From the NCBI GenBank assembly GCA_017431515.1, contig JAFRKV010000056.1:1-64000 (forward strand): DNA of 64,000 nucleotides, written 5' to 3'. The notes under the pieces are model-generated. The model was not told the DNA's origin and made no database searches. It saw only the letters and a list, made by a program, of their open reading frames with translations. The translations under genes and the position numbers were made by a program. This document shows, piece after piece, positions 1-18,460 of this stretch (its first letter is position 1; each line of letters starts with the position of its first letter). The DNA comes from Lachnospiraceae bacterium. Its GTDB lineage: Bacteria > Bacillota > Clostridia > Lachnospirales > Lachnospiraceae.

Positions 1-133
1 ATGTGGAGTTATCCTACTAAATTAATACTTTGGTTAGGATATAAGACACTATAAAATTCACGATAAAAAGGATTGTAGGATGACATCAGGTGGCTTATAT
101 TATCTATATAGTACTTTTGATAGCAGGCATTAT

Positions 134-565
134 CTAGTATAAACGTTTGTAATTAACTGGACTTTTTGAGAGGCAACGTTTCAACCTGAACTTGTTCGCT
201 TGGATCAATCTCATCGGGATGATATTTCCAGTGATAGATTACTGGGTCGGCATTGACCTCTTCAAAGTACTTATATATTCGTTCGACCAGTTCTTCTTTC
301 GTTTTTACACGAATACCCTTTAGGGACTGGCGAGTAAGCTTACTAAAGAACCCTTCAACAAGGTTTAACCACGAACCATGTTTTGGGGTAAATACAAATT
401 CGATTGTTCGTGCTCTTGCTTGTTCTTCGAGGAAGGCACGATCGTCAACAGACAGAGTTATCGTAGCAGCTTTCTTTCCCATAGAATAATGCTCCCTTCA
501 TTCGATAGGAACCTTATACTATAGGATCGAAATATAGTCCGGTTATTTAAAAATGTTTATACTAG
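134..565 (-). mobile_element. Internally deleted IS630-type element (MITE-like remnant)
   Basis: Near-matching terminal inverted repeats of 29 bp bound this element. The left end (134-162) reads CTAGTATAAACGTTTG and onward; the right end (537-565), read on the minus strand, reads CTAGTATAAACATTTT and onward. They differ at only a few positions and both finish in GGAC. The 7-bp word GCATTAT lies directly outside both ends (127-133 and 566-572), so it may be a target duplication. IS630 elements more usually duplicate TA, which is also available inside CTAG. The interior holds only the two ends of a transposase gene. The segment is much more AT-rich than the rest of the window, which suggests horizontal origin. 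Confidence 0.75.
153..482 (-). pseudogene. IS630-family transposase, in-frame internal deletion
   Basis: This 109-codon frame joins the start of an IS630-family transposase (MGKKAATITLSVDDRAFLEE, residues 1-20, from the N-terminal helix-turn-helix region) directly to its C-terminal end (FVFTPKHGSWLNLVEGFF, from about residue 29). Full-length relatives have roughly 330-370 residues. About two thirds is therefore missing, including both catalytic Asp residues, while the Glu of the DDE triad survives in the LNLVEGFF block. The frame is open and its stop codon lies inside the left inverted repeat, as is common in compact IS ends. It cannot be a working transposase. Mobility would need a full-length copy elsewhere in the genome. 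Confidence 0.8.
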
Positions 566-694
566 GCATTATACAAAAGTACGGAAAAATAAGATGCCTA
601 TTTTAACATGATTTCAGACCAAAAACAGATCTGGAACGGTGGAGATGGAATGACAACGAGGCGGTGTATACAAAAAAAGGAGCATCAGGAGTTT

Positions 695-1513
695 ATGCGA
701 TTATCCATCATCGTCCCGACTTACAACTGTGAAGCATATCTGGAGGAAGGCATCCGTTCCGTGCTGGGGCAGCTTCCGGAGGACTGCGAACTGATCCTGG
801 TGGATGACGGATCTATGGACGGGACGCCTCAGATTGTGAAAAAAACCCGGGAAGCCCATGCCAACGTAAAGATCAAGATCTGCGCCCATAAGGGCGCTTC
901 CGGCGCCCGAAACGCGGGCATCGAAATGGCGGAAGGCGAGTATGTGGCCTTTATGGACTGCGATGACTGCCTGCGGGAGGGGTTTTTGTCAGAGGCGCTG
1001 CCGATGTTGGAAACCGGCGCAGATCTCTATATCTTCGGCATCCGGCGCATTTTCCTGAAGGAGGAGCCGCAGAACTGGACCGTCGAAGACAAAGTCTATG
1101 AAACGGTGTCGGATTTTGCGGATGAGTACATCCGGACAAGAAAGCTGCTCATATATTCCAATTGCAACAAGTTTTATAAAACCGCCATCCTGAAAGAGCA
1201 TGGGATCCGCTTTGACGAGACGGTTTCCTTCGGGGAGGATCGCATGCTGAACTACGCATTCCTTCCCCATTGCGGCAGGATCGTCACCTCCTCGCTGGTC
1301 ATGCTGTTATACCTTCAGCGAAGCGAGACGTCCATGTCAAGCAGGCGCATCCCGCATTTTGAAGAGGAGTTGAAGCGGCTTCATGAAGAGAAAATGCAGT
1401 GCTTTCTGTCCATGTCCAAAGGCACGACTGAGGAGGAACGACAGGCTTTTGTCGACTTCGATCTGGCGCAGGTGGCGGAGGCAGTGCAGGCGGCTTCCCA
1501 CAAAACGCCATAA
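695..1513 (+). CDS. Family 2 glycosyltransferase
   Basis: A 272-residue GT-A fold glycosyltransferase that would transfer a sugar from a nucleotide donor to an unknown acceptor, probably a surface glycan. The N-terminus SIIVPTYNCEAYLEEGI is the family 2 nucleotide-binding strand. VDDGS follows near residue 37, GASGARNAGI near 70, and the DxD-like FMDCDD near residue 88. The C-terminal part is variable. I start at ATG 695 because SIIVPTYN should lie within a few residues of the N-terminus and AGGAG precedes it. ATGs at 650 and 608 are in frame and would add 15 or 29 unremarkable residues. No other glycan genes are adjacent, and the IS remnant sits just upstream. The donor and acceptor cannot be told from sequence. 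Confidence 0.8.
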   Translation: MRLSIIVPTYNCEAYLEEGIRSVLGQLPEDCELILVDDGSMDGTPQIVKKTREAHANVKIKICAHKGASGARNAGIEMAEGEYVAFMDCDDCLREGFLSEALPMLETGADLYIFGIRRIFLKEEPQNWTVEDKVYETVSDFADEYIRTRKLLIYSNCNKFYKTAILKEHGIRFDETVSFGEDRMLNYAFLPHCGRIVTSSLVMLLYLQRSETSMSSRRIPHFEEELKRLHEEKMQCFLSMSKGTTEEERQAFVDFDLAQVAEAVQAASHKTP

Positions 1514-1532
1514 TAATTTTTTCATTTTTCTC

Positions 1533-1561
1533 TTGACAGAAAAAAACGAATGATTTAAAAT
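1533..1561 (+). promoter_or_regulatory. Sigma-A type promoter of the nitrogen locus
   Basis: TTGACA (1533-1538), a 17-bp spacer and TAAAAT (1556-1561) form a near-consensus promoter. Transcription should start near 1568, only about five bases before the hexaloop hairpin of the leader attenuator. It drives asnB and probably glnN. Confidence 0.75.
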
Positions 1562-1572
1562 CCATATCCATA

Positions 1573-1616
1573 AAGACAAAGGCGTCTTGGAGAAATACTC
1601 CTAAGACGCCTTTTTT
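1573..1616 (+). promoter_or_regulatory. Leader attenuator A: AAAGGC hexaloop hairpin overlapping a terminator (asnB leader)
   Basis: Two mutually exclusive structures share bases 1578-1588. The first is a small hairpin, AAGAC (1573-1577), loop AAAGGC, GTCTT (1584-1588). The second is an intrinsic terminator: AAAGGCGTCTTGGAG (1578-1592), a 5-base loop, CTCC, one bulged T, AAGACGCCTTT (1603-1613), inside a T-run at 1611-1616. The loop has A at position 1 and G at position 4, the hallmark of RNA hairpins bound by ANTAR proteins. The same loop recurs before amtB and gltB. I infer that ANTAR binding to the hexaloop prevents the terminator and lets transcription reach asnB. Confidence 0.7.
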
Positions 1617-1684
1617 GCGTTTTTTACCAGCCAAATCCTGATCAGACGAGGCATGGGAAAACCGCAAACAGGAGGGGAAAAGAC

Positions 1685-3307
1685 ATGTGTTCAATATTGG
1701 GCTTCTGCGGGAAAGATGCCGCGTACGAGGAGATCAAAGACGCGCTTTCCAAAACGCTATCCAGAGGACCGGATGCCAGCCGGATCACGGATACGGGAAA
1801 CGGATTTCTCGGATTCAATAGATTGTCGATCATGGGGTTGACGGAAAACGGGATGCAGCCCTTTTTGTACAGTGACAAGAAGACGCAAAAGGGTATCGAT
1901 CCCAAAGATGCTGAAATCGTTCTGGTTTGCAACGGTGAGATCTACGGCTTCCGGAAAGAGAAAGAGGCGCTGATGGAAAAAGGCTATCAGTTCATCAGCG
2001 ATTCCGACTGCGAGATTCTCCCGGCTCTTTACCGGGAATACGGCACCGGGATGTTTGAAAGACTGGATGCGGAATTTGCGCTGGTCCTTTACGACAGCAG
2101 AGAAGAGCAGTACATCGCGGCAAGAGATCCCATCGGGATCCGCCCCCTGTATTACGGGATCACAAAGCAAGGAACCTACGTTTTCGCGTCGGAGCCGAAG
2201 AACCTGACAGCCTTGGTCGACCGTGTGGAACCGTTTCCCCCGGGTCATTACTTCAAAGACGGACAATTCGTATGCTACCGGGATCTGTCAAAGGTGACAG
2301 CCTTCCATCAGGACAGCGTCGAGACAGTGACCAAAAACATCCATGATCTTCTGATCAAGGGCGTGGAGAAACGGCTGGATTCCGATACGCCGGTGGGATT
2401 TCTGCTTTCGGGTGGTTTGGACTCCTCCCTGGTTTGCGGGATCGCGGCATCGCTTCTGGAGAAGCCGCTCCAGACCTGGGCCATCGGGATGGACGTGGAT
2501 GCCATCGATTTGAAATATGCGAGAGAGGTTGCGGATTTCATTCATTCCATCCATCACGAGGTGATCATCACCAAGCAGGATGTGGTGAATGCGGTGGAAG
2601 AAGTGATTGAGGCGCTGGGCACCTACGACATCACAACGATCCGCGCATCCATCGGCATGTATCTGGTGTGCAAAGCGATCCATGAGTCCTCGGATGTCAG
2701 AGTGATCCTGACCGGTGAAATTTCGGATGAGATTTTCGGATATAAATACACGGATTTCGCGCCGAATGCGGAAGAGTTCCAGAAGGAAGCGGAGAAGCGG
2801 ATTCATGAGATTCATATGTATGATGTGCTCCGGGCGGACAGATGTATCAGCGTGAATTCCCTGGAGGCCCGGGTTCCCTTCGGCGATCTGGATTTTGTCG
2901 AATACGCCATGGCCATCGACCCGGACAAGAAAATGAATCATTACAACAAAGGGAAATACCTGCTCCGGAAGGCGTTTGAGGAGGACGAGCTGATCCCCGA
3001 CAGCATTCTTTGGAGAGAAAAAGCGGCATTTTCCGATGCGGTGGGACATTCCTTAAAGGATGACCTGACAGAGCTGGCGGAAAGCAGATACACGGACAGC
3101 GAATTTGAAAAAGGGATCGAAAAATACGAACATGCAAAACCCTTTACAAAAGAATCCCTGATGTACCGTGACATCTTTGAAAAATACTATCCCGGGCAGT
3201 CTGAAATGGTGAAGGATTTCTGGATGCCAAACAAATCCTGGGAAGGATGCAATGTAAATGACCCGTCAGCAAGAGTGCTTTCCAATTACGGGGAAAGCGG
3301 CAAATAA
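1685..3307 (+). CDS. asnB: Asparagine synthetase, glutamine-hydrolysing
   Basis: A 540-residue enzyme that converts aspartate, ATP and glutamine to asparagine, AMP, PPi and glutamate in the cytosol. Cys2, directly after the initiator Met (MCSILGF), is the class II amidotransferase nucleophile. [14 protein letters not shown] and CNGEIY are the usual glutaminase blocks. SGGLDSS near residues 242-248 is the PP-loop of the synthetase domain, and [11 protein letters not shown] plus SLEARVPF follow as in E. coli AsnB (about 554 residues). AGGAGG precedes the ATG. It is first in the nitrogen locus, behind promoter 1533-1561 and attenuator 1573-1616, with glnN 31 bases downstream. Confident as AsnB family. 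Confidence 0.93.
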
Positions 3308-3338
3308 AAAACAGTCAAAATGTAAGGAGGAAATGATC

Positions 3339-5438
3339 ATGGAAAAGAAAAATGTCCCCGAACTGTTTGGTTCAATGGTATTTGATGACAGAGTGATGAG
3401 AGCCCGCCTGTCGGCGAAGGTCTATCACGCTTTGAGAAAGACGATCGATGAAAATGTCAAACTGGATGTGGAGGTGGCGGAAGCCGTAGCTGCAGAGATG
3501 CGCGATTGGGCAGTGGAAAAAGGCGCCACCCACTTTACTCATTGGTTCCAGCCCCTGACAGGCGTTACCGCTGAAAAGCATGATGGGTTTATTACCCCCT
3601 CACCCGATGGTGGGGTGATCATGGAGTTTTCCGGTAAAGAGCTGATCAAAGGTGAGCCGGATGCGTCCTCCTTCCCCTCGGGGGGCCTTCGCGCCACCTT
3701 TGAGGCCAGGGGTTATACAGCATGGGATCCGACGTCCTATGCGTTTATCAAAGATCATACCCTTTGCATTCCGACGGCGTTTTGCTCATATTCCGGGGAT
3801 GCACTGGATAAAAAGACCCCGCTCCTTCGCTCCATGCAGGCCTTGAATCTGCAGGCAAAGCGGATCTTAAAGCTCTTCGGCAAGGAAGTGAAATATGTCC
3901 GCACCAGCGTGGGACCGGAGCAGGAGTACTTCCTGATCGATAAAGAGATGTTTGAAAAACGTCCGGACCTGGTCTACACAGGCAGGACTCTGTTTGGCGC
4001 GATGCCGCCGAAAGGACAGGAGCTGGATGACCATTATTTCGGCGTGATCAAGCCCAGAGTCACGGCTTTCATGGAGGATCTGAACAGCGAGCTCTGGAAG
4101 CTGGGGATCCTGGCCAAGACGGAGCACAACGAGGTGGCACCCGCGCAGCATGAGCTGGCGCCGATCTTTTCCACCACCAATGTGGCGACGGATAACAACC
4201 AGCTGACCATGGAGATCATGCAGAAAGTTGCCAGAAAGCACGGCATGGTTTGCCTCCTGCATGAAAAACCCTTTGCAGGCGTCAACGGTTCCGGCAAGCA
4301 CAACAACTGGTCACTTGCAACCGACACGGGGGTAAACCTCCTTTCCCCCGGAGAGACGCCTTATGAAAATGCCCAGTTTCTGCTGTTCCTGTGCGCGGTG
4401 GTGCAGGCAGTGGACGATTATCAGGATCTGCTGCGGCTTTCCGTGGCGACGGCGGGAAATGACCACAGACTTGGTGCAAACGAGGCGCCGCCGGCCATCA
4501 TTTCGGTGTTCCTGGGGGATGAGCTCTCCGCAATTTTAGATGCCATCAAGACAGATTCCCCTTATCAGGGCAAGGAAAAAGAAGTGTTGAAGCTGGGCGT
4601 GCACGTGCTTCCCAGATTTTCCAAAGATACGACCGACAGAAACCGTACGTCGCCCTTCGCTTTTACGGGCAACAAATTCGAGTTCCGGTCCCTTGGCTCC
4701 TCCAACAGCATCGCCTGCTGCAACATCATGCTGAATGCGGCGGTGGCGGAAAGCCTGAAGCAGTATGCGGACAGACTGGAAGGGGCAAAGGACTTTGAGT
4801 CAGAGCTTCACGAACTGATCAAGGAAGTGATCGCAAAGCATGAGCGGATCCTTTTCAACGGAAACGGTTATACCGACGAATGGGTGAAGGAAGCCACCGA
4901 AAAGAGAGGACTGCTGAATCTGAAGACAACGGCGGATGCCATGCCGCATCTGCTGGACAAGAAAAACATGGATATGCTGATGTCCCACAAGGTTTTTACG
5001 GAATCCGAACTTCATTCCAGATGCGAGATCATGCTGGAGAATTACTGCAAGACCGTGAATATCGAAGGACATACCATGGTGGATATGGTGCGCAAGAATT
5101 ATCTGCCGGCCATGGAGGGATATCTGTACAGTCTGGCAAAGACGACTTCCATGATGCGTTCTGTCAGCGACAACGTCAAATGCAACTATGAAGTATCGAC
5201 GATGGAGAGGTTGTCCGAACTCACCGATGCGATCCTCGACAGGGTGGAGAAGCTGGAAAAAGCCCTGGAGAACCTGAAAGCATTTGATGATATTATCAAA
5301 ACATCCGAGGCGATCCGCGATGATGTGCTTCCGAAGATGGAAGACCTGCGGAAATACGTGGATGAAGCTGAGATGCTCACCAGCGAAAAATGCTGGCCCT
5401 TCCCGAGTTACGGGAAACTGCTGTTCTCGGTTTATTGA
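3339..5438 (+). CDS. glnN: Glutamine synthetase type III
   Basis: A 699-residue cytosolic enzyme making glutamine from glutamate, ammonia and ATP. Length and motifs fit the dodecameric GSIII family rather than GSI (about 440 residues). Seen in order: [12 protein letters not shown] at the N-terminus, the GSIII block [51 protein letters not shown] and [13 protein letters not shown]. Two ATGs follow the AGGAGG. I chose 3339 because 3333 lies only about two bases from the Shine-Dalgarno. It is co-transcribed with asnB, there being no terminator in the 31-base gap. A terminator with a hexaloop lies downstream, before amtB. Confidence 0.95.
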
Positions 5439-5505
5439 TTGAAGCGCCGTATAGACGGTGGCGGGTAGAAGCAAAAAGACGGCAGCAAAAACAGGATAAA
5501 GTGAG

Positions 5506-5556
5506 AAAAAAGTCATTCCACAAAGGCGTGGTGCTCCGGCGTGGGATGGCTTTTTT
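5506..5556 (+). promoter_or_regulatory. Attenuator C: AAAGGC hexaloop overlapping a terminator (glnN-amtB gap)
   Basis: The terminator stem is 16 bp: AAAAAAG plus TCATTCCAC (5506-5521) pairs with GTGGGATGG plus CTTTTTT (5541-5556). A competing hairpin uses the top of the 5' strand: CCAC (5518-5521), loop AAAGGC (5522-5527), GTGG (5528-5531). The loop is identical to those before asnB and gltB, while the stem bases differ and still pair. No convincing promoter is visible between glnN and this site, so it probably sets how far glnN transcripts read through into amtB. Confidence 0.65.
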
Positions 5557-5567
5557 ATATGCGCGAG

Positions 5568-5588
5568 TAGGAGGATGGCACCCTCCTA
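5568..5588 (+). promoter_or_regulatory. Hairpin with SD-like 5' strand upstream of amtB
   Basis: TAGGAGG (5568-5574) pairs perfectly with CCTCCTA (5582-5588) around a 7-base loop. The 5' strand looks like a ribosome binding site, but the functional SD of amtB is the separate ACAGGAGG at 5600-5608. CCTCCTA could alternatively pair with that true SD and mask it, so this may be a translational switch. That role is inferred only. Confidence 0.4.
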
Positions 5589-5617
5589 CAGATTCAATCA
5601 ACAGGAGGTGGATAGTT

Positions 5618-7387
5618 ATGACACAAGAAATTTTGAGTGCACTGGACGGAGAAGTGTTCGCGGTCTGGTTTTTGATTGGCGCGGCACTGGTCTTCTGGAT
5701 GCAGGCAGGATTTGCGATGTGCGAATCCGGTTTCACCAGAGCAAAGAACGCAGGAAACATCATCATGAAAAACCTGATGGATTTCTGTATCGGTACCGTG
5801 ATGTGGTTTATCATCGGTGCATCGCTGATGCTGGGTGATAACGTGATGAACGGTTTCGCAGGCGGCATCAGCTTTGATGTTTTTACGAACTACAAGAATT
5901 TCGATTATTCGGCATTCGTCTTCAACCTGGTGTTCTGTGCGACCACAGCAACCATCGTATCCGGCGCCATGGCAGAGAGAACCAAATTCTCCAGCTACTG
6001 TGTTTATTCGGCAGTGATCTCCGCGATCATTTACCCGATTGAGGCGCATTGGACCTGGGGCGGCGGATTTCTCGCACAGTGGGGATTCCACGATTACGCC
6101 GGTTCCAACTGCATCCATATGGTAGGCGGAATCTGCGCCCTGATCGGCGCATGGATGCTTGGTCCCCGTATCGGAAAATTCGAGCGGGACGGAAGCGGAA
6201 AGGTGAAGAAAGTCAATGCGTTCCCCGGTCACAACCTGGTCATTGCAGCCCTTGGCGTGTTTATTCTCTGGCTTGGCTGGTACGGCTTCAACGGTGCGGC
6301 AGCAACGGATGTACCCACACTCGGTTCTGTGTTCCTGACCACAACGGTAGCACCTGCAGTTGCAACCGTGGTATGTTTGATCTTTACCTGGGCAAAATAC
6401 GGCAAGCCTGATGTTTCCATGTGCCTTAACGCTTCTCTTGCAGGTCTGGTGGCCATCACTGCGCCTTGTGACGTGACGGATTGCTTCGGTGCTGCCATCA
6501 TCGGTGCGGTATCCGGCCTTCTGGTGGTATTCGGCATCTGGTTCAATGATTACAAAGCACATGTGGATGACCCGGTGGGCGCTGTGGCAGTCCATATGCT
6601 TAACGGAATCTGGGGAACGATTGCAGTCGGACTTTTTGCAACCTCGACAGCCCCGGGATTTGCAGTAGCAGGAATCGACGAAGGTCTTTTCTACGGCGGC
6701 GGCTTTACGCAGCTGATCAAACAGCTCGGCGGTATCGGTGTGACGGCGCTTTGGACGGTGGTAACGATCACCATTACCTTCTTCATCATCAAGAAGACGA
6801 TTGGCCTCAGGGTTTCCGAAGAAGAGGAGATCGTAGGTCTCGATTCCACAGAGCATGGCCTTCCGTCTGCATACTCCGGATTTGCGATCATGGATATCTC
6901 CAACACGATGGATGTCAATGAGAACACGAACCTCGGCGAAGCAGATTATGACAAGGCAAGCGAAGCGAAGCGCAATGCTTCCGTTCATGTGGAGAATATG
7001 TCTGAAACCTTGCAGGGAACTGTCATGCAGACCGGCATCAACAAGGTGGTCATTATCACGAAGCTTTCGATGTATGACAAGATCAAGAAAGCACTCAATG
7101 ACCTTGGCGTAACGGGTATCACGGTAACACAGGTTACGGGCTGCGGTATCCAGAAGGGTTCGAGCCAGATGTATCGTGGTGTTGAGATGGATATGACCCT
7201 CCTTCCGAAGATCAAACTGGAAGTGGTTGTCAGCCAGATTCCGGTGGACCGTGTGATCGAAACGGCCAAGAAGACGCTTTACACCGGAAAGATCGGCGAC
7301 GGCAAGATCTTTGTCTATCCGGTCAGCAAGGTCGTCAAGATCCGTACCGGCGAAGAAGATTTCGCAGCTCTGCAGGATGTCGAGTAA
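5618..7387 (+). CDS. amtB: Ammonium transporter fused to a PII signalling domain
   Basis: A 589-residue protein. Residues 1 to about 420 form an Amt/Rh channel with about 11 membrane helices. CESGFTRAKN, the TWGGGFLAQWGF block, HDYAGSNCIHMVGG (first pore His) and AVHMLNGIWGT (second pore His) are present. A hydrophilic linker follows. From about residue 474 to the end is a GlnB/GlnK-type PII domain (NKVVIITKL, VTGCGIQKGS, QMYRGVEMDM, LEVVVSQIPVD, TGKIGDGKIFVYPV, TGEEDF). In the T-loop the Tyr that is uridylylated in enterobacteria (YRGAEY) is Met here (YRGVEM). The fusion would let the PII domain gate its own channel according to ATP, ADP or 2-oxoglutarate. Start at ATG 5618 after AGGAGG. Confidence 0.93.
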   Translation: MTQEILSALDGEVFAVWFLIGAALVFWMQAGFAMCESGFTRAKNAGNIIMKNLMDFCIGTVMWFIIGASLMLGDNVMNGFAGGISFDVFTNYKNFDYSAFVFNLVFCATTATIVSGAMAERTKFSSYCVYSAVISAIIYPIEAHWTWGGGFLAQWGFHDYAGSNCIHMVGGICALIGAWMLGPRIGKFERDGSGKVKKVNAFPGHNLVIAALGVFILWLGWYGFNGAAATDVPTLGSVFLTTTVAPAVATVVCLIFTWAKYGKPDVSMCLNASLAGLVAITAPCDVTDCFGAAIIGAVSGLLVVFGIWFNDYKAHVDDPVGAVAVHMLNGIWGTIAVGLFATSTAPGFAVAGIDEGLFYGGGFTQLIKQLGGIGVTALWTVVTITITFFIIKKTIGLRVSEEEEIVGLDSTEHGLPSAYSGFAIMDISNTMDVNENTNLGEADYDKASEAKRNASVHVENMSETLQGTVMQTGINKVVIITKLSMYDKIKKALNDLGVTGITVTQVTGCGIQKGSSQMYRGVEMDMTLLPKIKLEVVVSQIPVDRVIETAKKTLYTGKIGDGKIFVYPVSKVVKIRTGEEDFAALQDVE

Positions 7388-7389
7388 TA

Positions 7390-7418
7390 TTGACAAATGT
7401 ACTGCTTTGGTGTAACAT
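7390..7418 (+). promoter_or_regulatory. Promoter of gltBD
   Basis: TTGACA (7390-7395), a 17-bp spacer and TAACAT (7413-7418), beginning two bases after the amtB stop codon. The predicted start near 7425 lies about four bases before the hexaloop hairpin, the same geometry as the asnB promoter and leader. Confidence 0.65.
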
Positions 7419-7428
7419 ACGTTGCATC

Positions 7429-7476
7429 GAGGCAAAGGCGTCTCAGAGGAAACTCTGGGGCGCTTTTCTCTTTTTC
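7429..7476 (+). promoter_or_regulatory. Leader attenuator B: AAAGGC hexaloop hairpin overlapping a terminator (gltB leader)
   Basis: The hexaloop hairpin is GAGGC (7429-7433), loop AAAGGC, GTCTC (7440-7444). The competing terminator is AAAGGCGTCTCAGAG (7434-7448), loop GAAA, CTCTGGGGCGCTTTT (7453-7467): 15 continuous pairs including three G-U, followed by CTCTTTTT. Compared with the asnB leader the loop is invariant while stem bases change on both strands, which supports real pairing. Confidence 0.7.
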
Positions 7477-7491
7477 TAGGAGGGGAATCAC

Positions 7492-10400
7492 ATGAAGGAA
7501 CAGAAGAGTCGTTTTGAGAAAGCACGCGCCTACGGTCTTTACGATCCGTCGTTTGAGCATGACAACTGCGGGATCGGCGCCATCATTGACGTGGCGGGAA
7601 AAGCCAGCCACACGCTGGTGGACGATGCGCTAAAGATCGTCGAGAAATTGGAGCACCGGGCCGGGAAGGACGCGGAGGGCAAGACCGGTGACGGTGTGGG
7701 GATTCTGACGCAGATCCCCCATAAATTCTTTGTAAAAAAACTGAAAAAGGAAGGCATTACGCTGCAAGGCGCAAGATCTTACGGCGTTGGCATGTTTTTC
7801 TTCCCGCAGAAGGATCTGAAACTCCGTCAGGCGAGATCCATGTTTGAGATCATCGTCAAGAAGGCGGGGCTGAAGATCCTTTATTGGAGAAAGGTGGAGT
7901 CAAATCCGAAGGTGCTGGGATCCAAGGCAAGGGAATGCATGCCGAATATCTATCAGGTCTTTATTGAGCGGCCGGAGGATGCCGGGACGGATCTGGATTT
8001 TGACCGGAAGCTCTATGTGATCCGGAGGGAGTTTGAGCAGAGCAGCACCAACACTTACGTGCCGTCCCTTTCCTGCAGGACCATCGTCTATAAGGGGATG
8101 CTCCTGGTGGGGCAGCTCCGTACGTTCTTTACGGATCTGGAGGACAAGGATTACGAGTCCGCCATCGCCATGGTGCATTCCCGGTTTTCCACGAATACGA
8201 TGCCCAGCTGGAACCGCGCCCACCCCAACCGCTTTATCGTGCATAACGGCGAGATCAATACCATCAAAGGAAATGCGGACAAGATGCTGGCCCGGGAAGA
8301 GACGATGCATACGGATCTTTTTTCGGAAGAGGATATGACCAAGGTGCTGCCGGTGATTTCCCAGAGCGGATCGGACTCCGCCATGCTGGACAATGTGCTG
8401 GAATTTCTGGTGATGAGCGGCCTGGATCTGCCTCTTGCCATGAGTATCATGATCCCGGAGCCCTGGGCTCATAATGAGACCCTGACCCAGGAAGAGCGGG
8501 ATTTCTATCAATATTATGCCACCATGCTGGAGCCCTGGGACGGACCGGCTTCTATTCTCTTTTCCGACGGGGATGTGATGGGGGCGATCCTGGACAGAAA
8601 CGGCCTTCGTCCTTCGCGTTATTACATCATGGATGACGGACGGCTCATCCTCTCTTCGGAGGTGGGTGTCCTTCCGCTGGATGAAAAGCATATCATCAAA
8701 AAAGAACGTCTCCATCCCGGCAAGCTTCTCCTTGTGGATACGAAGCAGAAGAAGATCATCCTGGATGATGAGATCAAGGAAATGTATGCGCTGAAAAAGC
8801 CCTACGGCGAGTGGCTGGACAGCAAGCTGACCCTGCTTTCCGATATCCGCATCCCGAATAAAAAAGTGACAAGGATCGAGGGCGAGCAGAGAAAGAAACT
8901 GCAGAAGGCCTTCGGTTACACCTGGGAGGATTATCACGACGGACTGCTGGGGATGGCACTCAACGGCACGGAGAGCATCGGCTCCATGGGAATCGACACG
9001 CCCATCGCGGCGCTTTCCAAAGAGTACCAGCCGCTGTTTTATTACTTCAAACAACTCTTTGCCCAGGTGACGAATCCGCCCATCGACGCACAGCGGGAGG
9101 AGATCGTGACCTCCAGAACCGTCTACGTGGGCAAAAACGGGAACCTTCTGGAGGAAAGCCCGGAAAACTGCCAGGTCTTAAAGATCAACAATCCGATTCT
9201 GACGGATCTTGACCTTCTGAAGATTGAGAATATGAAAAAGGAGGGCTTCCAGGTTTCGAAGATCTCCACGCTTTATTATAAGAGCACACCCATGAAGCGC
9301 GTGCTGGACCATCTGTTTGTGGAAGTGGACAAGGCCTACCGGGAAGGGGCGAATATCCTGATCCTTTCCGACCGCGGCGTGGACGAAAATCATGTGGCGA
9401 TCCCGTCACTCCTTGCGGTGGCAGCAGTCCATAATCATCTGGTGCGCACCAAAAAATGCACTGCCATGTCCCTGATCCTGGAGTCCGGCGAACCGCGGCA
9501 GGTGCATCATTTTGCGACACTGCTCGGCTATGGTGCTTCCGCCGTCAATCCGTATCTTGCCCATGCCACCATCGAGGAACTGATTGAAGACGAGCTGCTG
9601 GATAAGGATTATTACGCGGCTGTCGATGACTATGACAACGCGATCCTGTTCGGGATCGTCAAGATCGCGTCCAAGATGGGGATTTCCACGATACAGTCCT
9701 ATCAGGGCAGCAAGATCTTTGAAGCCATCGGGATCTCGGAGGATGTGATCGAGGCGTATTTCCCGGGCACGGTCAGCCGTGTGGGCGGCATCACGCTGGA
9801 GGATATCGGCTCCGCAGTGGATGCCCAGCACAGCAAAGCCTTTGATCCTCTGGGACTGCCGACGGATCTGGAACTTTCCGCCCTGGGACGCCATAAGAGC
9901 AGAAGTCAGGGAGAAAATCACCGGTACAACCCGAAGACGATCCATATGCTGCAGTATGCCACCAGAGAGGGCGACTACGGCAAGTTCAAGGAATATACCA
10001 AAATGGTGGATGCGGAGGAAACCGGGTATTTAAGAAGCCTGCTGGAGTTTCGTATCCCCAAGGAAGGGGTGCCGCTTTCCGAAGTGGAAAGCGAGGACTC
10101 CATCGTGCAGCGTTTCAAGACCGGCGCCATGTCCTACGGGTCGATCTCCGAGGAAGCGCATGAGACTCTGGCCATCGCCATGAACCATCTTCACGGAAAA
10201 TCAAACAGCGGCGAAGGCGGTGAGAGCGAGGAACGGATCCTTTCCGCGGGAACCGATCATGACAGAAGCTCCGCCATCAAGCAGGTGGCCAGCGGAAGAT
10301 TCGGCGTGACGAGCCGGTATCTTGTCAGCGCGAGAGAGATCCAGATCAAAATGGCCCAGGGCGCGAAACCCGGAGAGGGCGGCCATCTCCCCGGCAAGAA

Positions 10401-12063
10401 GGTATATCCCTGGATTGCGAAGACACGGCATTCGACGCCGGGCGTCAGCCTGATCTCGCCGCCGCCTCATCATGACATCTATTCTATTGAGGATCTGTCG
10501 CAGCTCATTTCTGACCTGAAGAATGCCAATAAGAATGCGCGGATCTCCGTAAAACTGGTATCGGAGGCCGGCGTGGGCACTGTGGCGGCCGGTGTGGCGA
10601 AGGCCGGTGCCGGCGTGGTGCTGATCTCCGGCTATGACGGCGGTACCGGCGCGGCCCCCCTTTCTTCCATCCATAACGCAGGCATGCCCTGGGAACTGGG
10701 TCTTGCGGAGACCCATCAGACATTGCTTGCCAACGGTCTCCGGAACAAAGTGGTGATCGAAACCGACGGCAAGCTGATGAGCGGGCGTGACGTGGCCATC
10801 GCTGCGATCCTGGGCGCGGAGGAATTCGGATTTGCCACGGCGCCGCTGATCACCATGGGCTGCGTGATGATGAGAGCCTGCCAGTCCGACACCTGCCCCA
10901 TGGGCGTCGCGACCCAGAATCCGGAGCTGCGCAAGCGCTTTGCCGGAAAGCCGGAATATGTGGAAAACTTCATGCGCTTCATCGCCAGAGAGCTGCGGGA
11001 GATCATGAGCACCCTCGGTGTCCGGACCGTGACGGAGCTGGTGGGACGCACCGACCTGCTGCGCGTCAAGGAGACGCTGAACGGTCAGGAGAAAAAGCTG
11101 GATCTCTCCAGAATCCTTTACGATGTGTCGGAGGAAGACCGGTCGGAGATGACTTTCCAGGGAAGCAAGCTCTATGATTTCCAACTGGAAACCACCAAGG
11201 ATGAAAAAGAGCTCCTATCCTCGAAGTCCATTCAGAAAGCCATCGAAACAGGAAAGAAAGCCACGGCATCGGTCACGCTGGAGAGTGTGGATCGCACCTT
11301 CGGCACGCTCCTGGGTGCGGAGATTACGAGAAAGCATCCGGAGGGACTTGCAGACGATACGATCACCATCAGCTGCAGCGGTTCCGGTGGACAGAGCTTT
11401 GGCGCTTTTGTCCCGAAGGGGCTGACTTTAAATCTGACGGGAGACAGCAATGATTATTTCGGAAAAGGGCTTTCCGGTGGGAAACTCGCTGTATTTGCAC
11501 CGGCGGAAGCGATGTATGATCCTCATGAAAACACCATGATCGGAAATGTGGCGCTGTATGGCGCGACTTCCGGAAAAGCTTTTATCGCGGGCATGGCGGG
11601 GGAGCGGTTCTGTATCCGTAATTCCGGCGCCGTCGCTGTGGCGGAAGGTGTGGGAGAACACGGCTGTGAATACATGACCGGCGGCACTGTCGTGATCCTG
11701 GGCAGCACCGGCAAGAACTTCGCGGCCGGCATGAGCGGCGGCGTGGCCTATGTGCTGGATGAGGACAACCGGCTTTACCGGAATCTCAACAAAGAGCTGG
11801 TCTCCATGGAAAATGTGGAGCATAAGAACGATAAGCGGGAGCTGCGGTCCATTATTGAGGAGCATGTGGCCTGCACAGGCTCGAAAAAGGGGCAGGAGAT
11901 TCTCGACCATTTTGAGGAGGATGTCCGGAAGTTTAAAAAGATCATTCCGAGGGATTACAAGGTGATCTTAAGCGGCATCGCCCATTTTGAGGAACAGGGC
12001 ATGGATCCGGAGACCGCAAAGATCGAAGCTTTCAAGGCCTTTGTTGCAGGAGAGGGGAGGTAA
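7492..12063 (+). CDS. gltB: Glutamate synthase (NADPH/ferredoxin type), large subunit
   Basis: A 1523-residue subunit that takes the amide nitrogen from glutamine and passes ammonia through a tunnel to 2-oxoglutarate, giving glutamate. The mature N-terminus is Cys26 (HDNCGIGAI), so a 25-residue propeptide is expected to be removed. Blocks in order: the class II glutaminase domain (FSTNTMPSWNRAHP, HNGEINT), a central domain, the FMN/Fe-S synthase domain (SGEGGESEERI, KPGEGGHLPG, SPPPHHDIYSIEDL, GGTGAAPLSS, CQSDTCPMGVATQ, whose Cys ligate the 3Fe-4S cluster), and the C-terminal GXGXG beta-helix (GGTVVILGSTGKNFAAGMSG). GltD follows after 6 bases. Expression appears set by promoter 7390-7418 and attenuator B. 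Confidence 0.96.
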   Translation: MKEQKSRFEKARAYGLYDPSFEHDNCGIGAIIDVAGKASHTLVDDALKIVEKLEHRAGKDAEGKTGDGVGILTQIPHKFFVKKLKKEGITLQGARSYGVGMFFFPQKDLKLRQARSMFEIIVKKAGLKILYWRKVESNPKVLGSKARECMPNIYQVFIERPEDAGTDLDFDRKLYVIRREFEQSSTNTYVPSLSCRTIVYKGMLLVGQLRTFFTDLEDKDYESAIAMVHSRFSTNTMPSWNRAHPNRFIVHNGEINTIKGNADKMLAREETMHTDLFSEEDMTKVLPVISQSGSDSAMLDNVLEFLVMSGLDLPLAMSIMIPEPWAHNETLTQEERDFYQYYATMLEPWDGPASILFSDGDVMGAILDRNGLRPSRYYIMDDGRLILSSEVGVLPLDEKHIIKKERLHPGKLLLVDTKQKKIILDDEIKEMYALKKPYGEWLDSKLTLLSDIRIPNKKVTRIEGEQRKKLQKAFGYTWEDYHDGLLGMALNGTESIGSMGIDTPIAALSKEYQPLFYYFKQLFAQVTNPPIDAQREEIVTSRTVYVGKNGNLLEESPENCQVLKINNPILTDLDLLKIENMKKEGFQVSKISTLYYKSTPMKRVLDHLFVEVDKAYREGANILILSDRGVDENHVAIPSLLAVAAVHNHLVRTKKCTAMSLILESGEPRQVHHFATLLGYGASAVNPYLAHATIEELIEDELLDKDYYAAVDDYDNAILFGIVKIASKMGISTIQSYQGSKIFEAIGISEDVIEAYFPGTVSRVGGITLEDIGSAVDAQHSKAFDPLGLPTDLELSALGRHKSRSQGENHRYNPKTIHMLQYATREGDYGKFKEYTKMVDAEETGYLRSLLEFRIPKEGVPLSEVESEDSIVQRFKTGAMSYGSISEEAHETLAIAMNHLHGKSNSGEGGESEERILSAGTDHDRSSAIKQVASGRFGVTSRYLVSAREIQIKMAQGAKPGEGGHLPGKKVYPWIAKTRHSTPGVSLISPPPHHDIYSIEDLSQLISDLKNANKNARISVKLVSEAGVGTVAAGVAKAGAGVVLISGYDGGTGAAPLSSIHNAGMPWELGLAETHQTLLANGLRNKVVIETDGKLMSGRDVAIAAILGAEEFGFATAPLITMGCVMMRACQSDTCPMGVATQNPELRKRFAGKPEYVENFMRFIARELREIMSTLGVRTVTELVGRTDLLRVKETLNGQEKKLDLSRILYDVSEEDRSEMTFQGSKLYDFQLETTKDEKELLSSKSIQKAIETGKKATASVTLESVDRTFGTLLGAEITRKHPEGLADDTITISCSGSGGQSFGAFVPKGLTLNLTGDSNDYFGKGLSGGKLAVFAPAEAMYDPHENTMIGNVALYGATSGKAFIAGMAGERFCIRNSGAVAVAEGVGEHGCEYMTGGTVVILGSTGKNFAAGMSGGVAYVLDEDNRLYRNLNKELVSMENVEHKNDKRELRSIIEEHVACTGSKKGQEILDHFEEDVRKFKKIIPRDYKVILSGIAHFEEQGMDPETAKIEAFKAFVAGEGR

Positions 12064-12069
12064 TCTGTT

Positions 12070-13554
12070 ATGGGAAAATCCACGGGATTTTTGGAATATG
12101 AAAGAGTTGAGGGCAATGTCCGGACGGAAAAGGAAAGGGTGAAGGATTTCCGGGAGTTTCACGAAAGACTCCCTCTCACAAAGCAAAAGGAACAGGCAGC
12201 CAGATGCATGGACTGCGGGATTCCGTTCTGCCAGGCGGGGATGATGATCGCCGGCATGGCATCCGGCTGTCCGCTGCATAACCTGGTGCCGGAGGTGAAT
12301 GACCTGGTATACCGCGGACGGATGGAGGAAGCCTATCAGCGGCTTTCCGTGACCCATAGCTTTCCGGAGTTTACGAGCAGGGTATGTCCGGCACTCTGTG
12401 AAGCGGCCTGCACCTGCGGGCTCAAGGACGAGCCGGTGTCCACCAAGGAAAACGAAAAGGCCGTGATCGAATATGCTTATGAAAACGATCTCGTCAAAGA
12501 GATCGCACCGGAGTACCGCACTGGGAAAAAGGTGGCAATCGTCGGGAGCGGGCCTTCCGGCCTGGCGGCTGCGCAGCTTTTAAACCGCCGGGGGCACAGC
12601 GTGACGGTCTATGAGAGGAGAGACAGGATCGGCGGACTGCTCCGTTACGGCATCCCGAATATGAAGCTGGAGAAAAGCCTGATTGACCGGCGGATCGCGC
12701 TCATGAAGGAAGCCGGCGTGGAATTTGTGGTGAATACGGATATCGGAAAGGATATTTCCGGAGAGAGTCTTCTAAAAGACTATGACAGTGTGGTATTATG
12801 CTGTGGGGCGTCCAATCCGCGGGATATCAAAGCACCGGGGCGGGAGGCAAAGGGCATCCGCTTTGCGGTGGACTTTTTGTCGGAGCTTACGAAACGCCTG
12901 CAGGACAGTGATTTTCAGGAGGTTCCCTATGACCTTGCGCAGGATAAGGACGTGATCATCATTGGCGGCGGCGATACCGGAAATGACTGTGTGGGCAGCT
13001 GTATCCGTCTCGGGGCGAAATCCGTGACCCAGCTGGAAATGATGCCCTGCCCGCCGGAAAAGAGGACGCAGACCAATCCCTGGCCGGAATGGCCCAAGAT
13101 CCTGAAGGTGGACTACGGGCAGGAAGAGGCGATCTGGAAATTCGGCAGTGATCCGAGAATTTACCAGACGACGGTGAAAGAGTTTAAGAAAGACAAAAAG
13201 GGAAACCTGAAGGAAGTGGTGCTCATTTCCCTGAAAGCCGAAAAGGATCCGAAGACTGGTCGGATGAATATGGTACCCGTGGAGGGGACGGAGAAGACAG
13301 TGCCGGCACAGCTGGTGCTGATCGCGGCAGGATTCCTGGGGAGTGAGCAATATGTGATTGACACCTTCGGCGTGGAGACCGACGGCCGGACAAATGTGAA
13401 GACGATCCCCGGCGCGCATCTGTCCTCCAAAGACAGGGTCTATACGGCAGGAGATATGCATCGCGGGCAGTCCCTTGTGGTATGGGCCATCGCGGAAGGC
13501 AGAAATGCCGCCAAGGAAGTAGACGAAGCGTTGATGGGATTCAGTAATTTATAA
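12070..13554 (+). CDS. gltD: Glutamate synthase, small subunit
   Basis: A 494-residue flavoprotein partner of GltB that moves electrons from NAD(P)H through FAD and two 4Fe-4S clusters. The Cys-rich N-terminal ferredoxin-like part is visible: CMDCGIPFC near residues 46-54, then CPLHN, and CPALCEAACTCG. Two dinucleotide-binding Rossmann motifs follow, VAIVGSGPSGLAAA (FAD) and VIIIGGGDTGNDC (NAD(P)H). TAGDMHRGQSLVVWAI is the usual C-terminal FAD contact. The ATG is preceded by a GGAGAGGGGAGG sequence formed by the end of gltB, so the two genes are translationally linked. A palindromic repeat element separates it from pyrG. Confidence 0.95.
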   Translation: MGKSTGFLEYERVEGNVRTEKERVKDFREFHERLPLTKQKEQAARCMDCGIPFCQAGMMIAGMASGCPLHNLVPEVNDLVYRGRMEEAYQRLSVTHSFPEFTSRVCPALCEAACTCGLKDEPVSTKENEKAVIEYAYENDLVKEIAPEYRTGKKVAIVGSGPSGLAAAQLLNRRGHSVTVYERRDRIGGLLRYGIPNMKLEKSLIDRRIALMKEAGVEFVVNTDIGKDISGESLLKDYDSVVLCCGASNPRDIKAPGREAKGIRFAVDFLSELTKRLQDSDFQEVPYDLAQDKDVIIIGGGDTGNDCVGSCIRLGAKSVTQLEMMPCPPEKRTQTNPWPEWPKILKVDYGQEEAIWKFGSDPRIYQTTVKEFKKDKKGNLKEVVLISLKAEKDPKTGRMNMVPVEGTEKTVPAQLVLIAAGFLGSEQYVIDTFGVETDGRTNVKTIPGAHLSSKDRVYTAGDMHRGQSLVVWAIAEGRNAAKEVDEALMGFSNL

Positions 13555-13713
13555 ACAGGATGTCGGGGTCATAAGTCACATGCCGCTTGCGGCATTGTGA
13601 CCTTTGCACAAGAATCCGGTCAGACATGCTGGCATGTCTGCACGGATTTTCGTGCAAAGTGCATATGCGATTTCATCGCATAGCACTTATGACCTTAACA
13701 TGATAAACAGGAT
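13551..13713 (+). repeat. Three-armed palindromic element copy 1, with 11-bp flanking direct repeat
   Basis: The core is 13561-13700, bounded by TGT...ACA. Outer stem GGTCATAAGT (13567-13576) pairs with ACTTATGACC (13685-13694). Inside are three hairpins. Arm I, near 13577-13599, has stem CACATGCCG with one bulge. Arm II, 13602-13659, is a long stem opening with CTTTGCAC/GTGCAAAG and capped by AGACATGC/GCATGTCT. Arm III, near 13660-13685, contains ATGCGAT-TTC-ATCGCAT. The word ATAAACAGGAT occurs exactly at 13551-13561 and 13703-13713 and looks like a target-site duplication. A second copy lies at 55875-56007 on the other strand. No reading frame or transposase is inside. It sits between gltD and pyrG and could affect read-through. 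Confidence 0.75.
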
Positions 13714-13722
13714 AAGGGGTAG

Positions 13723-16505
<2,783 letters not shown>

Positions 16506-16520
16506 TCAGGGTAGGGTAGC

Positions 16521-17102
16521 ATGCCAAAAAAGGAAAGTGTCTGCAATTCCATATTGATCGTGTCCGCCTCTGAGCAGTTTGAGTTTCAGGTCAAAAAAAC
16601 GCTGGTGGGGTTTCTGACCATCGATGTGGTCAGGAGCGTCGCCCTGGGAAGGCGGCATATCCTGGAAAAAGACTATGACCTTGTGGTGATCCAGATGCCG
16701 CTGAACGACGAGCCCGGGACAGAGTTTGCCGTGGATGTGGCGGAACAGAGCGAGGCGTCGGTTCTGATCGTATCTCCAGCAGAGGTTTACGCGGATGTCA
16801 TGGATATGGTGACGGATCACGGCGTCATGGTGGTTTCCAGCCCCTATCCGCCGATGGTGATGGATAAGGCGATCCGTGTGCTGATCGCCACCCAGGGCAG
16901 GATCAAAGCGCTGCAGAAAAAGATCCGGACCACGGAGGAAAAACTGGAGGAGCTTCGGATCGTGAGCAAAGCCAAACTGGTTCTGGTGGAGAAAAAGCAC
17001 CTCACGGAGGACGAAGCGCATAAATACATCGGAAAAAAAGCCATGAATCATGGTGTTTCCAGGAAACGGATCGCCGAGGCGATTCTGGATGATCTGACAT
17101 AA
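16521..17102 (+). CDS. ANTAR-domain antitermination regulator with degenerate receiver
   Basis: A 193-residue protein. Residues about 8-120 look like a CheY-type receiver (ILIVSASEQFEFQV, YDLVVIQMPLND). The position of the phosphorylated Asp (usually LLDxxMPG) is Gln (VIQMPL), so normal phosphotransfer is unlikely. A coiled-coil linker (about 125-150) leads to a C-terminal ANTAR domain (about 140-192) with AKLVLVEKKHLTEDEAHKYI and KRIAEAILDDL. ANTAR domains bind paired RNA hairpins with hexaloops and block terminators. Three AAAGGC hexaloop/terminator leaders in this locus are the obvious targets. It is the last gene of the locus. How it senses nitrogen is open; contact with the GS-like protein or a PII domain is conceivable. 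Confidence 0.85.
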   Translation: MPKKESVCNSILIVSASEQFEFQVKKTLVGFLTIDVVRSVALGRRHILEKDYDLVVIQMPLNDEPGTEFAVDVAEQSEASVLIVSPAEVYADVMDMVTDHGVMVVSSPYPPMVMDKAIRVLIATQGRIKALQKKIRTTEEKLEELRIVSKAKLVLVEKKHLTEDEAHKYIGKKAMNHGVSRKRIAEAILDDLT

Positions 17103-17146
17103 GGATTTCTGTAAAATGATTTCTCACCGACTTTCTTTTCATCAGA

Positions 17147-17168
17147 TGACAGGCGTGGTATACTGTCA
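17147..17168 (+). promoter_or_regulatory. Promoter with inverted-repeat operator before the DUF3089 operon
   Basis: An extended -10 (TGGTATACT, 17156-17164) is embedded in the inverted repeat TGACAG (17147-17152), 10 bases, CTGTCA (17163-17168). The -35 is weak (TTTTCA at 17136-17141, 17-bp spacer). A repressor bound to the repeat would cover the -10. The regulator is unknown. Confidence 0.5.
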
Positions 17169-17191
17169 CTATATGATCAGGAGGTCGTGTT

Positions 17192-18460
17192 TTGAAAAAA
17201 CGTAGATTAACAGCAGTCATTTCTGCAACACTTCTTTTTACAATCTTCCTTCTTTCCGGCTGTGTGCCAATCGGACGCGAAGACCGCGTGGAGAAAGTAC
17301 AGGATGCAGTAGGGAAAATCCAGGAAAAACAGGAAAAACGGGAAAGTTTCAACGAAAGGACGCCGGATCCCCAGGCGGATTTTTATGATACGCCCCTTGT
17401 CGGCGTGGCCAATGACTATTCCTATGACGATAACTGGCTGATGATCCCGGACAAGATCACAAAGGATGTGGATACGTTTTATGTGTATCCCACCATTGTG
17501 ACGAATACCCTGAAGGATGCGCCCGCCATCGTGGACATCGATGAGCCCATCATGCGGATTGGCGCGTATGATACCTATATCAAAAATGCAACGGCCTTTG
17601 AGGAGAGCACGAATGTGTTTGCGCCTTTTTACCGGCAGACCAATATGGCGGCAGTGGCGGATCTCAGAGGACAGGAGCTGGAGGATTTTCACAAGCAGGA
17701 GCAGCGCACCGATATCTATGCAGCGCTGGATTATTATTTTGAACATTATAATGAGGGGAGACCCTTCATTCTGGCCGGGCATTCCCAGGGCTCCATTCTC
17801 TTAAAGATCGCGCTGGAAGAGTATTTCCGGCTTCATCCGGAGTATTATGAAAGGATGATCGCGGCCTATCTGGTGGGTTTTTCCGTGACGAAGGATGATC
17901 TGAAAAACTATCCCCATCTGAGATTTGCCCAGGGTGCCTCTGACACGGGCGTCATTGTTTCATGGAATACGGAAGGCCCCGGAAATAAAGACGCAGACAA
18001 TATCGTCCTGGAGCCGGATGCGATCTCCATCAATCCGATCACCTGGACCCTGACGGCGGCCTATGCGCCGGCCGATGCCTGTCCGGGCAGCCGCGTAGAT
18101 GATATGGCAGGCACCCTCGAAGGCGAAGTGGTGCAGCTTCGGTTCGATATCCGTGAGATCCTTTATACCAAAACCACCATCGAGGAACTGGTGGGCCGGG
18201 TGATCGAGGATTCCTTTACGGAATATCATCCGGGCATTGCGGATGCGCAGGTGGATCCGGAGCGGGGCGTTGTGATCTGTACCACGGAGTGCGTGCCCTT
18301 TATGAAGATCACCAATCCGGATATGCCGGATGTGTTTGGCCCGGAGAGCTATCATAGCAGCGATTATGCCCTGTATTATGACAGCATCGTGGAAAATGTG
18401 GAGGATCGGATCGACCATTGGGAGGACCAGCACGAGGAGTGGGAGGCAAAAGACGACTGA
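17192..18460 (+). CDS. DUF3089 lipoprotein, predicted alpha/beta hydrolase
   Basis: A 422-residue secreted lipoprotein. The start is TTG 17192, after CAGGAGG. The signal peptide ends in a lipobox (LLSGC), with the lipidated Cys at residue 24. A Lys/Glu-rich linker follows, then a DUF3089 domain with VDTFYVYPT, NVFAPFYRQ and the nucleophile elbow AGHSQGS near residues 194-200, as in alpha/beta hydrolases that act on esters or lipids. It would face the outside of the cell membrane. It is the first gene of a five-gene operon with a phosphopantetheinyl transferase, MATE exporter, ATP-grasp ligase and phosphatase. A role in maturing or trimming an exported product is possible but unproven. Confidence 0.8.
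   Translation: MKKRRLTAVISATLLFTIFLLSGCVPIGREDRVEKVQDAVGKIQEKQEKRESFNERTPDPQADFYDTPLVGVANDYSYDDNWLMIPDKITKDVDTFYVYPTIVTNTLKDAPAIVDIDEPIMRIGAYDTYIKNATAFEESTNVFAPFYRQTNMAAVADLRGQELEDFHKQEQRTDIYAALDYYFEHYNEGRPFILAGHSQGSILLKIALEEYFRLHPEYYERMIAAYLVGFSVTKDDLKNYPHLRFAQGASDTGVIVSWNTEGPGNKDADNIVLEPDAISINPITWTLTAAYAPADACPGSRVDDMAGTLEGEVVQLRFDIREILYTKTTIEELVGRVIEDSFTEYHPGIADAQVDPERGVVICTTECVPFMKITNPDMPDVFGPESYHSSDYALYYDSIVENVEDRIDHWEDQHEEWEAKDD

Follow-up and report, generated by a model that had tools for sequence, protein, structure and literature searches.

The glutamine and ammonium genes at the start of a Lachnospiraceae contig are quite probably preceded by NitR-type ANTAR transcription attenuators that carry one hexaloop instead of two. 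The DNA analysed (the window) comprises positions 1 to 64,000 of contig JAFRKV010000056.1 (assembly GCA_017431515.1), the start of contig C8 in a draft genome of 2.35 Mb that is 82% complete. The genes of its nitrogen locus are ordered asnB, glnN (type III glutamine synthetase), a fusion of amtB with a P-II domain, gltB, gltD, pyrG, glnA, and a gene for an ANTAR protein. The leaders of asnB, amtB, and gltB each hold a hexaloop hairpin that overlaps an intrinsic terminator. An earlier sequence-only reading of the window had suggested a minimal variant of ANTAR antitermination, and this proposal is supported by promoter position, covariation of the hairpin stem, gene context, and co-occurrence of the leaders with ANTAR genes.

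All three hairpins described in that reading were found, with the common loop AAAGGC, in which A at position 1 (A1) and G at position 4 (G4) are the recognition marks of ANTAR proteins; the nitrogen gene behind each of them and the ANTAR gene that closes the locus were likewise confirmed. Folding bears out the overlap with terminators: the leaders have minimum free energies of -22.2 (asnB), -23.7 (amtB), and -26.6 kcal/mol (gltB), with z values of -5.8, -4.6, and -4.8 against shuffles, and the hexaloop hairpins alone are weak (-3.2, -3.7, and -4.6 kcal/mol, respectively). At asnB and gltB, the 5' arm of the terminator takes in the loop and the 3' stem of the hairpin, and the upstream half of the stem stays outside the main terminator stem. 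At amtB, the 5' stem of the hairpin belongs to the 5' arm of the terminator and the loop lies outside the terminator stem. When asnB and gltB transcripts of increasing length, beginning at the predicted start, were folded, the hexaloop hairpin was present with a probability of 0.7-1 once the RNA reached about 20 nt, and formation of the terminator had displaced it by 42 nt in asnB and by 36 nt in gltB. An alternative hairpin at gltB, TTGC[ATCGAG]GCAA (loop in brackets), overlaps the AAAGGC hairpin and recurs in the near-identical genome G001; it is possibly a chance rival, because transcription is predicted to start at its 5' stem (7422-7425) or downstream of it.

The sigma-70-type promoters of asnB and gltB are the two best on the plus strand of window positions 1-17500, where promoter-like sites overall show no excess (15 vs 12.6 in shuffles). 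Their -10 elements end 11 nt (asnB) and 10 nt (gltB) before the hairpin. Since transcription usually starts about 6-7 nt downstream of the -10 element, the predicted starts fall 3-6 nt 5' of the hairpin, which agrees with the few bases that the earlier reading had estimated and with its view that no room is left for a first hairpin. The asnB leaders of G001, G002, and G003 have the promoter at the same distance, and the gltB promoter is the same in G001. No strong promoter was found before the amtB hairpin (best candidate 6/12), which is also present in G001, G010, and G014, as CCAC[AAAGGC]GTGG or CCAC[AATGGC]GTGG in the four genomes.

Related genomes were searched with a covariance model of hairpin and terminator without promoter (R1), built from 24 leaders whose main selection criteria were A1..G4 and a stem of 4 bp or longer; it models five pairs. 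A second model of promoter and hairpin (R2) was run on the window only, which keeps the promoter claim non-circular. Leader counts, taken at E<=1e-3, are lower bounds owing to strict filters. The related set of 98 genomes, including that of the window, yielded 65 leaders in 40 genomes. PF03861 was found in 73 of the 98, or 74 with G003, whose ANTAR copy is cut off; leaders occur in 40 of these 74 genomes and in none of the 24 without ANTAR (Fisher p 4e-7). Within the window's family alone, the corresponding counts are 32/55 and 0/5 (p 0.018). The class-wide set of 391 genomes has leaders in 69 and PF03861 in 196 (193 above the cut-off), with leaders in 66/196 genomes with ANTAR vs 3/195 without (p 4e-19); as in the related set, these genomes are related by descent, so the counts are not independent. 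Together with the known A1/G4 loop rule, the co-occurrence suggests that the ANTAR protein reads the hairpin. A weak R1 match on the minus strand over the asnB terminator (22.7 bits) is what an inverted repeat would be expected to give. Rfam gave no match at gathering score in the window, and its eight matches in five of the leader loci all lie under gathering score (E >= 0.065).

Conservation and covariation were assessed on 85 fresh leaders, i.e., 94 minus nine that belong to the training set or come from G001; 56 of them are from relatives. They are no near-copies of the first-stage loci described below (best DNA match 85% over 55-60 nt). Stem pairs 1 to 5 are formed in 85, 85, 85, 84, and 71 of the fresh leaders, compared with shuffled means of 85.0, 74.9, 64.3, 68.8, and 55.1: pair 1 is invariant, pairs 2-5 lie above all 300 shuffles, and pairs 6-8 are at chance. 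In a first set of 31 leaders, where a 4-bp stem was the selection rule, changes on both sides occupy 60 cells vs 23.7 after shuffling. The loop has G4 in all 56 fresh leaders from relatives and A1 in 54, the other two having G1, as retrieved by a model trained on such loops. The recognition marks and the stem pairing noted in the window are thus kept in related genomes.

The gene context extends beyond the window. By BLAST against window and locus proteins, the next open frame of the 65 related-set leaders is glnN (24), asnB (10), gltB (7), amtB (7, three at 31-33% identity), purF (3), pyrG (2), glnA (2), a class-II amidotransferase (1), or another gene (9). The nine others are LL-diaminopimelate aminotransferase (twice), nifH, an M20 peptidase, an amino-acid-oxidase-like protein, a 2Fe-2S protein, a chemotaxis-receptor-type protein, an IS200-type transposase, and one leader without an open frame in the stretch, which in another view (L039) stands 75 nt before glnA. 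From the class set, 29 new leaders were read (the best per genome); they precede glnN (14), amtB (6, two at 30-35%), glnA (2), and asnB (1) by BLAST and, by profile, gdhA (2), purC, a PPDK_N protein, and an incomplete NifB under the cut-off. One further class leader is followed by a GatD-like amidotransferase, under its own cut-off and above that of Pfam GATase_3. A glutamine or ammonium gene comes next in 79/94 leaders by BLAST and in 88/94 with a wider list, a few leaders sharing a gene (G056). Leaders of the same kind stand before nifH (L114, G092) and the NifB-like gene (L170, G189). The leader followed by the transposase (L117, G006) has a strong promoter, and an insertion has perhaps occurred between it and its gene.

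The promoter position recurs in the fresh leaders. A promoter of at least 10/12 with its -10 end 10-19 nt before the loop is present in 33/56 fresh leaders of relatives, whereas shuffled upstream sequences give a mean of 0.19 and a maximum of 2 (200 trials). Over all 85, such a promoter abuts the hairpin in 52, its -10 element ending 12-19 nt 5' of the loop (median 15); given a 5-bp stem and the usual start spacing, the RNA would start about 0-8 nt before the hairpin. No first hairpin is possible in these leaders, because the promoter leaves no room for it, and its absence there is no separate evidence. Room does exist between glnN and the amtB leader (80 nt in the window, 73 in G001, 47 in G010, and 59 in G014), and no second hexaloop with A1 and G4 was found in this gap in 4/4 genomes. 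No second upstream A1..G4 hexaloop was found in the window's transcripts, as delimited by predicted starts; a weak one, with a single G-C pair, lies further upstream at 5410, inside glnN. Upstream A1..G4 hexaloops within 75 nt occur in 2/56 fresh leaders of relatives vs 0.6 in shuffles. A second hexaloop downstream of the leader was rejected: such loops occur within 110 nt in 4/56 of these leaders, two being the terminator's own loop, one belonging to a second, tandem leader (G044), and one having a weak stem 72 nt on.

By its position close after glnA, the regulator of the window is of the NitR type, which the earlier reading had not named; the NitR gene of Clostridium saccharobutylicum presumably also adjoins glnA. 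A glnA match was found in 60/66 ANTAR loci (two being copies of the window's own). The protein has a C-terminal ANTAR domain (PF03861, 51.5 bits, cut-off 27.3), received no name from NCBIfam, and is 83% identical to its closest named relative (L002, from a Lachnospiraceae metagenome-assembled genome). Among solved chains, the family profile matches EutV (6wsh, identified as such in PMC8934654) and the putative antiterminator 1s8n over nearly the whole length, and AmiR (1qo0) and the nitrate regulatory protein NasR (4akk) in the ANTAR part only. Mapping of the RNA-contact residues of EutV through the profile alignment shows that Lys149, Glu160, and Met172 are kept in 30/30 relatives; among 70 distinct ANTAR open reading frames of the loci, Glu160 is kept in 69 and Met172 in 70. 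Arg142 and Arg168 are not kept in the 30 relatives, and Arg177 is mostly Ser. The window protein lacks a receiver of the EutV type: Ser15/Ala16 stand where the acidic pocket would be, and Gln58 occupies the place of the phospho-accepting Asp. Of the 70 frames, 30 have Asn and 16 have Asp at this place, the remainder having another residue or a gap. Phosphorylation is thus unlikely as the signal for most of these proteins; candidate sources are GlnA, encoded next to the ANTAR gene, and the P-II domain fused to AmtB. His at the place of EutV Tyr164 seems characteristic of ANTAR proteins linked to glnA: it is present in 66 of the 70 frames, the other four having Tyr.

Several observations weigh against single-hexaloop attenuation. 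By the EutV model, one hexaloop ought not suffice, because induction was lost when the first hairpin (P1) was deleted and also depends on the length of the linker (according to the portions consulted of PMC3369931 and PMC8934654, respectively). Tyr164 of EutV, which stacks on G4, corresponds to His in 30/30 relatives and to His167 in the window protein. Leaders without an ANTAR match occur in three class genomes: G140 (four leaders), G212, and G472. With the profile of the 30 relatives, G140 and G472 again yielded no ANTAR protein, and G212 yielded only a match to the receiver part. Conversely, 34/74 ANTAR genomes have no leader at E<=1e-3, and the window's own amtB leader falls under this cut (E 0.0132). 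The shared descent of the genomes tempers the counts, and the loop and inner stem of R1 matches are partly fitted, because the training leaders were chosen mostly for these features. In seven of the 85 fresh leaders, the strong promoter lies at a distance of 24-61 nt, and an upstream A1..G4 hexaloop accompanies it in three (clear in G010 and G212, weak in G189). Another 26 have no strong promoter nearby, and four of these have such a hexaloop (G015, G100, G281, and G140), G281 and G140 looking like tandem leaders.

A rival view takes the leaders for dual-hexaloop ANTAR leaders of the usual kind, with a first hairpin that escaped notice because transcription starts further upstream. EutV, NasR, and AmiR targets are dual (as given in PMC3369931); dual leaders exist in the same regulon (gltB of G010 and glnN of G072 and G212), and glnN of G079 and of G092 has a first hexaloop hairpin in which G4, or A1 as well as G4, is missing. 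This explanation nevertheless appears unlikely, given the abutting promoters, the scarcity of upstream hexaloops, and their absence from the glnN-amtB gap; as far as sequence can tell, dual leaders are a minority in the regulon. In the three dual leaders (L179:8137-8181 in G010, L086 in G072, and L175 in G212), the promoter lies 57-61 nt before the second loop, and they are natural comparators for the single type. The first hexaloops of L068 (G079, AACTAA) and L072 (G092, GACAAA) possibly represent a decaying first hairpin. Two hexaloop attenuators in series, apparently each with its own terminator, precede one gene in L094 (G044 glnN), L122 (G056 glnN), L159 (G281 glnN), and L163 (G140, GatD-like).

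Still less credible is a genuine hairpin read by another factor, or an ANTAR protein that stabilizes the 5' end of the RNA instead of causing antitermination. The predicted 5'-terminal position of the hairpin and the three genomes with leaders and no detected ANTAR gene would fit such a role, but hairpin and terminator exclude each other in all three window leaders, the A1/G4 rule and the co-occurrence point to ANTAR, and a single ANTAR gene was found in the 82% complete draft.

That the hexaloop is a mere by-product of terminator composition, with AAAGGC kept for pairing with GCCTTT and a flanking stem formed by chance, is barely credible: the loop does lie in the 5' arm of the terminator at asnB and gltB, but there the upstream half of the hairpin stem falls outside the main terminator stem, the halves covary across leaders, the amtB loop, outside the terminator stem altogether, is still AAAGGC or AATGGC in four genomes, and the leaders co-occur with ANTAR genes. 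The first-stage loci, collected around genes related to that of the window's ANTAR protein (35 from a genome-contig search and 30 from related genomes, one being the window's own) bear on the same point. Hairpins with a six-base loop, four or more stem pairs, and a downstream T-tract were listed in the 64 loci and the window, no loop being favored. Without a promoter condition, A1..G4 loops make up 158/2058 hexaloop hairpins (149/1979 with identical contexts counted once). With a promoter of at least 10/12 just upstream, they make up 28/33 (22/27 distinct contexts, one of the 22 being the overlapping ATCGAG loop of gltB), and with at least 11/12, 15/17 (13/15 distinct contexts). On this enrichment beside promoters, which holds in distinct contexts, and on stem covariation, a chance hairpin derived from terminator composition was rejected. 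The promoter-proximal A1..G4 hairpins of the loci precede glnN, gltB, glnA, purF, pyrG, glmS, and a class-II amidotransferase that resembles the glutaminase part of a split glutamate synthase; the identities of glmS, purF, and type III glutamine synthetase were confirmed by profile.

ANTAR antitermination of the glutamine synthetase and glutamate synthase (GS/GOGAT) genes is already reported: in C. saccharobutylicum they are induced through NitR upon nitrogen limitation (as cited from Stutz et al. 2007 in the consulted portion of PMC6316151). The ANTAR protein and GS/GOGAT targets of the window match that system. The leader architecture and wider gene list may add to what is known, although Stutz 2007 may already show such leaders. 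No description of single-hexaloop ANTAR leaders was found in the open-access literature searched.

The remaining comparisons rest on the consulted portions of the papers cited. With EutV and the eut leaders of Enterococcus faecalis, the window type shares the hexaloop with A1 and G4, the hairpin-terminator overlap, a receiver-like N-terminus, and equivalents of Glu160 and Met172. It differs in its single hexaloop, placed at the transcript's 5' end or close to it, whereas EutV needs both hairpins, P1 and P2 (PMC3369931), separated in eut leaders by linkers of 5-12 nt (PMC3369931). The protein differs in the missing acidic pocket, the mostly missing phospho-Asp, and His for Tyr164. As the two-hairpin feature was not found, the window leaders are not classed as dual-hexaloop, though their working is likened to EutV. 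NasR/nasF and AmiR/amiE share the ANTAR domain, the A1 and G4 hexaloop, the terminator overlap, and a role in nitrogen metabolism (PMC3369931), and AmiR too has a pseudo-receiver (PMC3369936). Unlike the present type, they have two hairpins, a single target locus each, and other sensor domains (NIT in NasR). Nitrogen regulons of Desulfotomaculum resemble it as multi-operon ANTAR regulons of glutamate and nitrogen genes in Firmicutes; they have dual-hairpin leaders (PMC3369931) and were found with a dual-hairpin model, which would pass over single-hexaloop ones.

Under single-hexaloop attenuation, RNA polymerase would start just before the hairpin at asnB and gltB and would probably read into the amtB leader from asnB-glnN. 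The hexaloop hairpin would be the first stable fold of the nascent RNA. Unassisted, it would be displaced by the terminator, a more stable fold that incorporates the loop and 3' stem at asnB and gltB and the 5' stem at amtB, and transcription would stop. When nitrogen is short, the ANTAR protein might hold the hexaloop through A1 and G4 and so block the terminator, allowing transcription of asnB-glnN-amtB and gltBD. Binding by the protein, antitermination, nitrogen as the signal, and sufficiency of one hexaloop are the inferred parts of this scheme.

The leaders bear on an open question, the role of the first hairpin, because EutV needs two (PMC3369931), although its dimer occupies a single hairpin at a time, P1 or P2 alone being bound as well as both (PMC8934654). 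The authors of the latter study regard a single hexaloop as the minimal motif, expect single sites where polymerase timing is not binding, and ask for further work. Dozens of natural leaders seem to work with one hexaloop where polymerase timing matters; they open the first hairpin's role to direct tests, would escape dual-hairpin models, and predict a glutamine-centred regulon in many gut and rumen bacteria. The chances are about even that they mark a separate ANTAR class, spread over many Clostridia and neighbours, whose pseudo-receiver protein, largely without phospho-acceptor and with His for Tyr, recognizes one hexaloop at the transcript's 5' end without a loading hairpin. Its targets would then be makers and users of glutamine: glnN, glnA, gltB, gdhA, asnB, amtB, purF, purC, pyrG, glmS, a GatD-like gene, dapL, and nif genes.

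Table 1. Leader elements and genes of the nitrogen locus (window coordinates)
Feature	Position	Strand	Evidence or remark
asnB promoter, sigma-70-type, TTGACA-17-TAAAAT	1533..1561	+	11/12
asnB hexaloop hairpin AAGAC[AAAGGC]GTCTT, putative antiterminator	1573..1588	+	R1 46.9 bits (training set)
asnB intrinsic terminator	1578..1613	+	overlaps hairpin loop and 3' stem
asnB, glutamine-dependent asparagine synthase	1685..3307	+	NF006949 above cut-off
glnN (name used here), glutamine synthetase type III	3339..5438	+	PF12437 GSIII_N and PF18318 above cut-off
amtB intrinsic terminator	5508..5554	+	shares hairpin 5' stem
amtB hexaloop hairpin CCAC[AAAGGC]GTGG, putative internal antiterminator	5518..5531	+	R1 26.4 bits (training set)
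amtB, ammonium transporter with fused P-II domain	5618..7387	+	PF00909, PF00543
gltB promoter, sigma-70-type, TTGACA-17-TAACAT	7390..7418	+	10/12
gltB hexaloop hairpin GAGGC[AAAGGC]GTCTC, putative antiterminator	7429..7444	+	R1 46.2 bits (training set)
gltB intrinsic terminator	7434..7467	+	overlaps hairpin loop and 3' stem
gltB, glutamate synthase large subunit	7492..12063	+	
gltD, glutamate synthase small subunit	12070..13554	+	TIGR01317 above cut-off
pyrG	between gltD and glnA		named by eye and via its relatives
glnA, second glutamine synthetase, immediately 5' of ANTAR gene	15327..16505	+	PF00120, PF03951
NitR-type ANTAR protein gene	16521..17102	+	pseudo-receiver (Gln58 at phospho-Asp place), ANTAR domain, His167

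Two minor features of the window were also observed. The gltD-pyrG gap (13560-13705) contains nested inverted repeats (e.g., TTTGCAC..GTGCAAA), perhaps a dispersed repeat element. An open frame on the minus strand at 153-482 resembles, by eye only, part of a transposase.

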